Of a DNA stretch of 35,464 bases, positions 1,630 through 10,447 are shown piece after piece. The notes beneath the pieces were generated by a model that did no database searches, was not told where the DNA came from, and was given only the letters and a program-made list of their open reading frames with translations. Every line of letters begins with the position of its first letter. Positions within the stretch are counted from its first letter, which is position 1. Position numbers and translations under genes: made by a program. Source of the stretch: Bacillota bacterium (GTDB taxonomy: Bacteria; Bacillota; Sulfobacillia; Symbiobacteriales; ZC4RG38); contig JAKKUO010000020.1 of NCBI GenBank assembly GCA_021890795.1, positions 1-35,464 of the forward strand. Direction: 5' to 3'.

Positions 1630-2169
1630 ATGCAGGTAGCGAGAGAGTGGTCCCTGGGCCCGTATGCGCCCGCGCCCCGGACCCCGTACCGGGAGCCTGA
1701 CCGGAGCCGCCGGCCCGCTGAACTCCGCCGGCGCCGGAGCCGCCCCCCTCTGGCGGTCCTTGGGCTTGCCTTCCTTTGCTGGTCTTTTCTGGTGGGGCTG
1801 GGTGTGGTATACGTAAACCGGGAGGCGAACATCGTCCGGCAGGGCCGGGAGCTCCAGGAGCTGCGGAACGCGGTCGAGAAGCTGGAGGAGGAGAACCGGG
1901 CCCTGGAGGCCCAGGTGGCCTCCCTCTCCAGTGTCCAGCGCATCGCCCAGGAGGCCCGGCGGCTGGGGCTGGTACCGCCCTCAGAGCTGAAGGTGGCCGC
2001 GGTGGACCGGGCCGCGGTCATGGCCGCGATGGCCCAGCCCGAGGACCGGGAGCCGGAGCCGGTCCAGATGGCGGCGGCTTCCCGGCCGGCGGGGCTGTGG
2101 GACCGGGTCCGGGGGTACCTGGCCCGCTGGTGGATGCACCCGGCCCAGGAGCAGGCCTCCGGGCGGTGA
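1630..2169 (+). CDS. ftsL: Cell division protein FtsL-like (septum formation initiator family)
   Basis: A small bitopic membrane protein of 179 aa with a basic, proline-rich cytoplasmic N-terminus (residues 1-40), one transmembrane helix (about 41-62) and an extracellular leucine-zipper-like coiled coil (about 63-105). A family-typical segment (IAQEARRLGLVPP) follows, then a tail of about 60 residues. FtsL partners with DivIC and DivIB to activate FtsW/FtsI at the septum. The ATG at 1630 is preferred over the upstream in-frame start at 1588 because GAGGGGGGT lies 6-10 nt before it. Sequence in this family diverges quickly, so the name rests on topology and on position between rsmH and the class B PBP gene. 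The N-terminal region is longer than in many FtsL proteins. Confidence 0.85.
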   Translation: MQVAREWSLGPYAPAPRTPYREPDRSRRPAELRRRRSRPPLAVLGLAFLCWSFLVGLGVVYVNREANIVRQGRELQELRNAVEKLEEENRALEAQVASLSSVQRIAQEARRLGLVPPSELKVAAVDRAAVMAAMAQPEDREPEPVQMAAASRPAGLWDRVRGYLARWWMHPAQEQASGR

Positions 2170-7172: not shown

Positions 7173-8159
7173 ATGACCCCTGCGATGCGCCTCACCTTCG
7201 CAGCTCTCCTCTCCTTCCTCCTGGCCCTGGTCACCGGCTGGTGCGTGATTCCCCTCCTCCGGCGCCTGAAGGCCGGCCAGACCATCCGGTCCGACGGCCC
7301 CCGGCACCACCTGGCCAAGGCCGGCACCCCGACCATGGGCGGCATCATCTTTGCCCTCCCGGCAGCGGTGGCTGCCCTGGCCTTCACCCCCCGGGACGGC
7401 GGGGGCCGGGACCTGGTGCCGATGCTGGTAGCCCTGGGGACGGCTCTGGGGCACGGGGCCGTGGGCTTCGCCGACGACTACATCAAGGTGGCCTTCCGCC
7501 GGCCCCTGGGGCTCCGGGCCCGGGAGAAGCTCTTCTTCCAGACCTTCCTCGCCCTGGTTCTTGCCTGGGCTGCCGTCCGTCTGCTGGGGCTGGGCACCTG
7601 GGTCTGGGTGCCCTTCGTCAACCGCACCTTCGACCTGGGGATGCTCTACTACCCCTTTGTGCTCTTCCTGGTCCTGGGCACCGGCAACGCGGTCAACCTC
7701 ACCGACGGGGTGGACGGCCTTTTGGCCGGAGCGTCGGTGACCGTCTTCGCCTTTTACACCTACGTGGCCGCGATCCAGGGCCAGGTAGGACTGGCGGTGC
7801 TGGCCGCCGCCATCGCCACTGGCTGCCTGGGCTTTCTCCGGTACAACGCCCACCCGGCCCGGGTCTTCATGGGGGACACCGGCTCCCTCTTCCTGGGCGG
7901 GGCCCTGGCGGCCCTGGCGGTGCTCACCAAGACCGAGTTCCTCCTGCCCCTGAGTGGGCTGCTCTTTGTCCTGGAGACCCTTTCGGTCATTCTCCAGGTC
8001 CTGGCATTCCGGCTCACCGGGCGGCGTATCTTCCGCATGAGCCCCCTGCACCACCACTTCGAACTCGGGGGCTGGTCGGAGAACGAGGTGGTCTACCGGT
8101 TCTGGCTGGTGGCCCTGGCGGGGGTCCTCCTGGCCCTCTGGGGGCTGGGGACGGCCTGA
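7173..8159 (+). CDS. mraY: Phospho-N-acetylmuramoyl-pentapeptide-transferase
   Basis: MraY is a polytopic membrane enzyme that transfers phospho-MurNAc-pentapeptide to undecaprenyl phosphate, giving lipid I. The 328-aa sequence shows about ten hydrophobic helices and the family motifs: DGPRHHLAKAGTPTMGG near the N-terminus, the catalytic GFADDYIK, NAVNLTDGVDGLLAG, and PLHHHFELGGWSE near the C-terminus. The ATG start follows GGGAGGT. The gene is normally followed by murD; here only 37 nt separate its stop from the proposed ftsW start. Confidence 0.97.
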   Translation: MTPAMRLTFAALLSFLLALVTGWCVIPLLRRLKAGQTIRSDGPRHHLAKAGTPTMGGIIFALPAAVAALAFTPRDGGGRDLVPMLVALGTALGHGAVGFADDYIKVAFRRPLGLRAREKLFFQTFLALVLAWAAVRLLGLGTWVWVPFVNRTFDLGMLYYPFVLFLVLGTGNAVNLTDGVDGLLAGASVTVFAFYTYVAAIQGQVGLAVLAAAIATGCLGFLRYNAHPARVFMGDTGSLFLGGALAALAVLTKTEFLLPLSGLLFVLETLSVILQVLAFRLTGRRIFRMSPLHHHFELGGWSENEVVYRFWLVALAGVLLALWGLGTA

Positions 8160-8196
8160 GGACGGGCCGGGGCCGGGCGGGAAAGGGGGCGTCAAC

Positions 8197-9300
8197 CTGC
8201 AGTTCGAACCGAGCCGCCGGTCCGGGGACCCGGGGCTCAGCCTGGCGGTCATCGCCCTCCTGTCCATCGGCGTGGTGATGGTCTTCAGCGCCAGCATGGC
8301 CCGGGCCGAGGACCAACTGGGGGATCCCTTCAGCTACCTCAAGCGGCAGGCCCTTTTCGTCGCCCTGGGGCTGGGGGTGATGTGGCTCACCTCCCGGGTG
8401 CCGTACAGCCAGTGGCGCCGGCTGGCCCGGCCGCTCCTTTTGGCCGGGTTGGCGCTGCTGGTCCTGGTGCTGATCCCCGGCATCGGCCAAGTTCGCAACG
8501 AGGCCCGGCGCTGGATCGGCTTCGGTCCTGCCAGCTTTCAGCCCTCGGAGTTCATGAAGTTTGCCATCGTGGTCTTCATGGCGGACTACCTGGCCGGGGT
8601 GCGGGACTTCCGCCGGCTCCGAACCCTCTTTCTCCCCGGGGCCGTGCTGGGGCTGGTCTTCGTGCTGATCATGCTCGAGCCGGACATGGGGACGGCTCTG
8701 GCCATTGCGGGCACGGTCTTCGTCCTCCTCTTCGCCGCCGGGGCGGAGCTCTGGCACCTGGGCGGGCTCTCCCTGGCGGGGGCGGCGGCGGCCACCTACT
8801 ACGCGTTCAGCGCCGAATACCGGCGGGATCGGATCCTGAACTTCCTCAACCCCGAGCGGGACCCCCTGGGATCGAGCTACCAGGTGCTCCAGGGGCTCTA
8901 CGCCCTGGCCTCGGGCCACCTCTTCGGCGTCGGGGTGGGACGCAGCCGGCAGAAGTTCTGGTACCTCCCGGAGCCCCACACCGACTACATCTTCGCGATC
9001 ATCGGGGAGGAACTGGGGTTCCTGGGCGCCCTGGTCACCCTGCTCCTCTTCCTGCTCTTCACCTGGCGGGGATACCGGACCGCTGCGGCCGCACCGGACC
9101 GGTTCGCCTCCCTTCTGGCCACCGGCATCACCACCATGATCGCCCTGCAGGCGGTGATGAACATCGCGGTGGTGACCGCCTCCATGCCGGCCACCGGCAT
9201 CCCCCTGCCCTTCATCAGCTACGGCGGATCCTCCCTCCTGGTCACCCTGGCCGGGGTCGGGATCCTCCTGGGGGTCAGCCGCTACCGGACTTACGGCTGA
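8197..9300 (+). CDS. ftsW: Septal peptidoglycan polymerase FtsW (SEDS family), CTG start proposed
   Basis: FtsW is the SEDS-family glycosyltransferase that polymerises lipid II at the septum with its class B PBP. The protein is rich in transmembrane helices and ends with the SEDS signature GIPLPFISYGGSSLL. The first canonical in-frame start (GTG 8272) would cut the first transmembrane helix in half. The frame is open upstream, and the codons from 8197 read LQFEPSRRSGDPGLSLAVIALLSIG in two parts (LQFEPSRRSGDPG, then the helix SLAVIALLSIGVVMVFSAS), a typical FtsW N-terminus. GAAAGGGGG lies 7 nt before CTG 8197, and no ATG, GTG or TTG occurs in frame between the mraY stop and 8272. With CTG the protein is 367 aa, the usual length. 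The gene identity is secure; the start is an inference. Confidence 0.93.
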   Translation: MQFEPSRRSGDPGLSLAVIALLSIGVVMVFSASMARAEDQLGDPFSYLKRQALFVALGLGVMWLTSRVPYSQWRRLARPLLLAGLALLVLVLIPGIGQVRNEARRWIGFGPASFQPSEFMKFAIVVFMADYLAGVRDFRRLRTLFLPGAVLGLVFVLIMLEPDMGTALAIAGTVFVLLFAAGAELWHLGGLSLAGAAAATYYAFSAEYRRDRILNFLNPERDPLGSSYQVLQGLYALASGHLFGVGVGRSRQKFWYLPEPHTDYIFAIIGEELGFLGALVTLLLFLLFTWRGYRTAAAAPDRFASLLATGITTMIALQAVMNIAVVTASMPATGIPLPFISYGGSSLLVTLAGVGILLGVSRYRTYG

Positions 9301-9328: not shown

Positions 9329-10447
9329 ATGCGTGTTCTCCTCACCGGGGGCGGGACCGGCGGACACGTCTACCCTGCCCTCGCCATCGCCGATGAGATC
9401 CGCAGGCTTGAGCCCGGCGCCCGGTTTCTCTTCGTGGGAACGGCCCAGGGCATTGAGGCCGACCTGGTCCCCCGGGCGGGGCTGCCCTTTGCCACCATCG
9501 CCGCGGGCGGGCTGGTGGGGACCTCCCTGGTCCAGCGGCTCCGGGGGGCCTTGAAGATGGCTGTCGGGGTCTGGCAGGCGGTCCGGCACCTGCGCCGGTT
9601 CCGCCCGGATGTCGTCCTGGCCACCGGCGGCTACGTCAGCGGGCCTGTGCTCCTGGCCGCCCGGTTCCTGGGGATTCCCTACGCCCTCTGGGAAGGGAAC
9701 GCCTTTCCCGGGGCCACGGTCCGGCTCTTCAGCCGCTGGGCCCGGGCGGTCTTCATCCCCTTCCCGGAGGCCGGGCGGCACTTCCCGCCCGGGGTGAAGC
9801 TCTTCCCTCTGGGCAATCCGGTGCGCCGGGAGGTGCTGGAAGCGGACCGGGAGGCGGCCCGGGCCGCCCTGGGCCTCGGGCCCGGGGACCGGCTGGTGCT
9901 GGTGGTGCCCGGGAGCATCGGCGCCCGGGGACTGAACCGGGCGATGGTGGAGGCGGCGCCCCGGCTCCTGGCCCGGCCGGAGGTGCGGATCCTCCACGTC
10001 ACCGGCGCCCGGCAGCACGGGGAGGTGATCGGCCTCTACCGGCAGGCCGGGATGGACCCGGAGGGGACCCCGGGGCTCATGGTGCGGCCTTACCTCCACG
10101 AGATGCCCCTGGCCCTCGCGGCGGCGGATCTGGCGGTCACCCGGGCCGGGGCCACCACCACTGCGGAGCTGGCGGTCCGGGGCCTGCCGGCGGTGGTGAT
10201 TCCCTTCCCCTACGCCACCCACAACCACCAGGAGTACAACGCCCGGGCCCTGGCCGACCGGGGCGGGGTGGTGATGATCCGGGAGGCGGAACTCAGCGGG
10301 ACGCGCCTCGCCGAGACCCTGCTGGAGCTCCTCGACAACCCGGACCGCCGGGCGGCCATGGCCCGGGCGCTCCGGGAGGTGGCTCGGGACCGGGCCGGGG
10401 AGGAGATCGCCGCCCAGGTCCTCGCTCTGGCCCGGAGCCGGCGGTAG
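9329..10447 (+). CDS. murG: UDP-GlcNAc:lipid I N-acetylglucosaminyltransferase
   Basis: MurG is a peripheral membrane GT-B glycosyltransferase that adds GlcNAc to lipid I at the inner face of the membrane, forming lipid II. The 372-aa protein starts with the lipid-binding glycine loop GGGTGGHVYP at residues 7-16. It has the second G-rich loop (PGSIGARGLN) and the C-terminal nucleotide-sugar site (TRAGATTTAEL ... PFPYATHNHQEYNA). The ATG at 9329 follows GGAAGGAGG. murC commonly follows murG but is absent here; murB comes next after a 119-nt gap. Confidence 0.96.
   Translation: MRVLLTGGGTGGHVYPALAIADEIRRLEPGARFLFVGTAQGIEADLVPRAGLPFATIAAGGLVGTSLVQRLRGALKMAVGVWQAVRHLRRFRPDVVLATGGYVSGPVLLAARFLGIPYALWEGNAFPGATVRLFSRWARAVFIPFPEAGRHFPPGVKLFPLGNPVRREVLEADREAARAALGLGPGDRLVLVVPGSIGARGLNRAMVEAAPRLLARPEVRILHVTGARQHGEVIGLYRQAGMDPEGTPGLMVRPYLHEMPLALAAADLAVTRAGATTTAELAVRGLPAVVIPFPYATHNHQEYNARALADRGGVVMIREAELSGTRLAETLLELLDNPDRRAAMARALREVARDRAGEEIAAQVLALARSRR

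Follow-up and report, generated by a model that had tools for sequence, protein, structure and literature searches.

Probable initiation of ftsW at CTG in an uncultured, high-GC bacterium and its recurrence in a few other conserved genes

Non-canonical starts in bacteria and the ftsW locus

Non-canonical start codons are already known as a kind in bacteria. The closest described case is infC, which begins with AUU, AUC, or AUA, and whose near-cognate start provides feedback by IF3. The ftsW gene described here resembles infC in combining a non-canonical start with a strong Shine-Dalgarno (SD) sequence and conservation across relatives, whereas it differs in that infC is subject to IF3 feedback, while the CTG-initiated genes of the present family are functionally unrelated. 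The common GTG and TTG starts are also comparable, being first-position variants of ATG, and in relatives the aligned codon of the same genes is TTG or ATG; CTG, in contrast, is not a usual start for common gene finders. Reporters and in vitro complexes of Escherichia coli provide a likeness at the level of the ribosome, with the initiator tRNA on a P-site CUG and a C-U mismatch at the first position (PMC11497404). Cryo-EM placed the first codon position too far away for strong pairing on CUG, which is uncommon as a bacterial start and inefficiently used (PMC11497404). Unlike in those reporters, CTG is conserved here in essential or housekeeping genes. In a mycobacterial reporter selection, CTG was not enriched (0.03%; PMC4633059). 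No prior report of a family in which conserved CTG starts recur in housekeeping genes alongside a variant initiator tRNA was found in our incomplete coverage of the literature.

The window, i.e., the whole 35,464-nucleotide stretch of DNA analysed, contains the dcw cluster of an uncultured, high-GC bacterium. The ftsW gene (8197..9300, forward strand; 367 codons plus stop) is located between mraY (7173..8159, forward strand; TIGR00445, 316.9 bits) on its 5' side and murG (9329..10447, forward strand; TIGR01133, 281.7 bits) on its 3' side, both of which start with ATG. The product read from CTG 8197 scored 412.8 bits against the FtsW model TIGR02614 (cut-off, 337.5), and its score against the SpoVE model TIGR02615 (419.5) fell under that model's own cut-off (448.8). 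The PF01098 match begins at residue 16, from which solved FtsW chains in the PDB also align. By these matches and its gene context, the product is FtsW, the lipid II polymerase of the divisome, in agreement with an earlier sequence-only reading, which had described a normal FtsW N-terminus encoded from CTG 8197. Elsewhere in the window, the best start by SD for an FtsL/DivIC-like gene (1630-2169, forward strand) was ATG 1630 (-11.7 kcal/mol), rather than the TTG 1588 given in the list of open reading frames.

Start signals of ftsW and its relatives

The ftsW reading frame extends back to 8041 without a stop and overlaps the end of mraY, whose stop codon is the TGA at 8157-8159. The first in-frame ATG, GTG, or TTG is the GTG at 8272..8274 (forward strand), and no canonical start was found in this frame between the upstream in-frame stop and that codon, which bears out the same reading's claim that none lies between the mraY stop and 8272. 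An SD sequence, GAAAGGGGG, was found at 8181..8189 on the forward strand with a computed pairing energy of -11.0 kcal/mol, and the end of GGGAAAGGGGG at 8189 leaves a suitable gap of 7 nt, as had been noted, to the CTG at 8197..8199 (forward strand). This energy was comparable to those of the neighbouring mraY (-11.6) and murG (-10.3), and was attained by just one of 364 codons within ftsW. SD strength was defined as the pairing energy with ACCUCCUUU; this anti-SD was assumed because no 16S 3' end from which to read it was found, the sole pattern match lying outside any 16S gene according to Rfam. Genome-wide, strong SD sequences preceded 38% of the ATG codons near coding onsets, compared with approximately 8% for most other codons. 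RNA folding around the ftsW start was ordinary (z = -0.31), and structural control is therefore not claimed.

GTG 8272, together with GTG 8275 and ATG 8278, would be the obvious candidates for a canonical start, being the first such codons in frame, and they are largely kept in a sister species (GTG, GTA, and ATG, respectively). However, GTG 8272 corresponds to residue 26 of FtsW, halfway through the first hydrophobic stretch (LSLAVIALLSIGVVMVFSAS), such that initiation here would remove half of the first transmembrane helix (TM1), as originally proposed, and no canonical start would yield the complete protein. All three codons lie inside TM1 and lack an SD (+1.5, -1.1, and -1.7 kcal/mol, respectively), and the 25 codons upstream of GTG 8272 are conserved with the sister at the protein level. 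In 106 of the 108 FtsW-family loci judged, a canonical start precedes residue 18, ahead of the first helix, and the remaining two represent one sister sequence counted twice. A start at any of these three codons is thus very unlikely. The near-cognate codons CTG 8242, ATC 8251, and CTG 8260 are also in frame, but their SD sequences are weak (-5.7, -4.7, and -5.5 kcal/mol, respectively) and they are situated at the edge of or within TM1, which leaves them hardly better placed as candidates.

The comparison with relatives relied mainly on two genomes: the sister species, MAG ZC4RG38, which is the only congener among the species compared (96% protein identity), and G002, a single-contig genome from another genus of the same family. 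The sister ftsW has CTG at the identical codon, after GGGAAAGGGGTGGCGTCGAC, with an SD of GGGAAAGGGGTGG (-8.2 kcal/mol); its frame is interrupted by a stop 42 nt before this codon and offers no canonical start. In G002, the aligned codon is TTG (SD, -10.3 kcal/mol). The ortholog comparison that had been suggested as a check thus placed the starts at or near the aligned CTG and not at 8272. In addition, the leaders of the window genome and the sister differ by indels upstream of CTG and by none from CTG onward, so that the conserved ftsW frame begins at about this codon.

The same data bear on two further explanations. Ribosomal frameshifting or coupled read-through might append FtsW to MraY, so that FtsW would have no start of its own, as the open frame reaching back to 8041 into the end of mraY would allow. 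However, mraY carries its own stop, and such a fusion is impossible in the sister, where the in-frame stop 42 nt before CTG lies past the end of mraY; we regard this route as highly improbable. Alternatively, the codon could be an artefact of sequencing or assembly, the real codon being ATG or TTG or an upstream start being masked by an indel, given that the assembly is a draft of metagenome type with 103 contigs. Against this, the independently assembled sister genome has the same CTG behind a different leader, with no other start; several further genes show the same feature in both genomes; and two genes, etfB and ruvC, also begin with CTG in the single-contig G002. Given the results for the sister, G002, and the 108 loci, sequencing error, initiation within ftsW, and fusion of MraY to FtsW by frameshifting are all very unlikely.

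Translation of ftsW from CTG 8197 is thereby the strongly preferred reading, with CTG very probably serving as a rare fourth start in a small conserved gene set of the family. In the proposed mechanism, the strong upstream SD would place CTG 8197 in the ribosomal P site, where the initiator tRNA would read it as formyl-methionine; the strong SD may compensate for the weak first-position pairing on CTG. We infer that initiation occurs at CTG 8197 itself and that methionine is residue 1 of FtsW. It is plausible that the yield of FtsW from CTG would be lower than that from ATG.

Probable CTG starts in other genes

The non-canonical start extends beyond ftsW to other genes of the lineage. The scan covered 1.6 Mb of the 2.79-Mb genome, in which 1,314 genes were predicted by codon usage and 1,154 were well supported, and its strict criterion required ATG, GTG, and TTG to be absent between the upstream stop and a point 60 nt beyond the onset of coding. 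Eleven of the 1,154 well-supported genes lacked a canonical start by this criterion. One of them was prfB, a gene known to need a +1 frameshift (site CTTTGAC), and its recovery indicates that the strict scan works; the site, GGGGGTCTCTTTGAC, lies on the minus strand of the window genome (G000, C29, about 38967). Five of the 11 genes, ftsW among them, had a CTG with an SD of -9.5 kcal/mol or better at the expected N-terminus, and several had no convincing start. The excess of CTG among the 11 genes was modest (CTG with an SD in five genes vs. GCC in three).

CTG starts were assigned to addB (C32:126142; SD, -12.1 kcal/mol), surE (C32:178373; -11.7), etfB (C30:4909, minus strand; -11.1), and rsmA (C25:4593; -9.5), and a looser scan added ruvC (C6:40288; -10.5), in which the first canonical codon follows the GIDPG motif. 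Read from CTG, the predicted N-termini are Met-KIVVCLKQVLDPEI for EtfB and Met-RVLGVDPG for RuvC. In the sister, addB, surE, etfB, rsmA, and ftsW all (5/5) have CTG at the aligned codon. Because 120 of the 154 CTG codons inside these five genes (78%) are also kept in the sister, the identity of the CTG codon alone is weak evidence, and the evidential weight comes from the lack of an alternative start and not from codon conservation. In the sister addB, for example, an in-frame stop at -9 makes CTG the only start ahead of the GRAGTGKT motif. CTG also recurs in G002, both in etfB, whose frame is closed by a stop codon 15 nt before the CTG, and in ruvC, where a stop lies at -45 and no canonical codon follows until +48, past the GIDPG motif. 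The G002 addB has TTG at the aligned codon and its rsmA has TTG one codon earlier, while for addB and surE the order-level relatives show ATG at the aligned position or directly beside it. The strict scan of 0.8 Mb of G002 returned four of 622 genes with no canonical start, of which only one had a CTG candidate, and a weak one (-8.6 kcal/mol).

From the CTG codons with a strong SD in ftsW, addB, surE, rsmA, etfB, and ruvC and their recurrence in relatives, sequence evidence points to CTG as a rare fourth start codon of this genome, used by at least 6 of approximately 1,300 predicted genes. Further CTG candidates with a strong SD were a pepF-like gene (C62:18383, plus strand), a comB-like gene (C32:174720, minus strand), an unknown gene (C32:224418, minus strand), and an azlC-like gene (C10:5655, plus strand). 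A separate observation concerns the alanine racemase gene (L117:15323-16453, minus strand), which has no ATG, GTG, or TTG near the N-terminus and in which ACG 16453 (-11.5 kcal/mol) is the best placed of the codons preceded by a strong SD; the G002 counterpart has TTG with an SD, and the sister contig ends before the start region.

Initiator tRNA, IF3, and start-codon use in the family

The genome has three initiator tRNA genes (L180:12599-12675, plus strand; L185:4832-4908, minus strand; and L198:3144-3220, minus strand) with the usual GGG/CCC stem, two of which carry G37 (loop CTCATGA) where A37 is usual. Each of the other two family genomes, the sister and G002, contains a single G37 copy alongside A37 copies, and the variant gene is thus present in all three; a search for the G37 initiator pattern in 397 other genomes of the phylum gave no match. 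The A37 of the usual initiator takes part in a base triple within the anticodon arm of the free tRNA and, in the P site, stacks on U36 (PMC4611024), and an altered base 37 could therefore shift the tolerance at the first codon position. It is conceivable, but rather doubtful, that the G37 isoform stabilises initiation at CTG and has widened the start-codon set of the family, with CTG as the fourth start in conserved genes. The link between G37 and CTG is a correlation within one family, offered as a hypothesis only, and it is not strongly favoured because the strict count in G002 was low (0.8 Mb). IF3 is also present in all three family genomes. In each of them, infC starts with ATC, a classical near-cognate start of this gene, after GGGAGGTG (GGAGGTG in G002; L114:1492, plus strand; L115; and L116). 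Given the presence of IF3 and the ATC start of infC, IF3-dependent start discrimination probably exists in the family.

Gene finders limited to ATG, GTG, and TTG would shorten or miss such genes; annotation from canonical starts only would cost FtsW half a helix, RuvC a conserved Asp motif, and AddB its Walker A motif. The conservation of CTG in genes for division, DNA repair, and rRNA modification suggests that this start can be maintained by selection or tolerated over genus-level time. Overall, the coincidence of CTG starts with a G37 initiator tRNA may provide a handle on what sets start-codon stringency.
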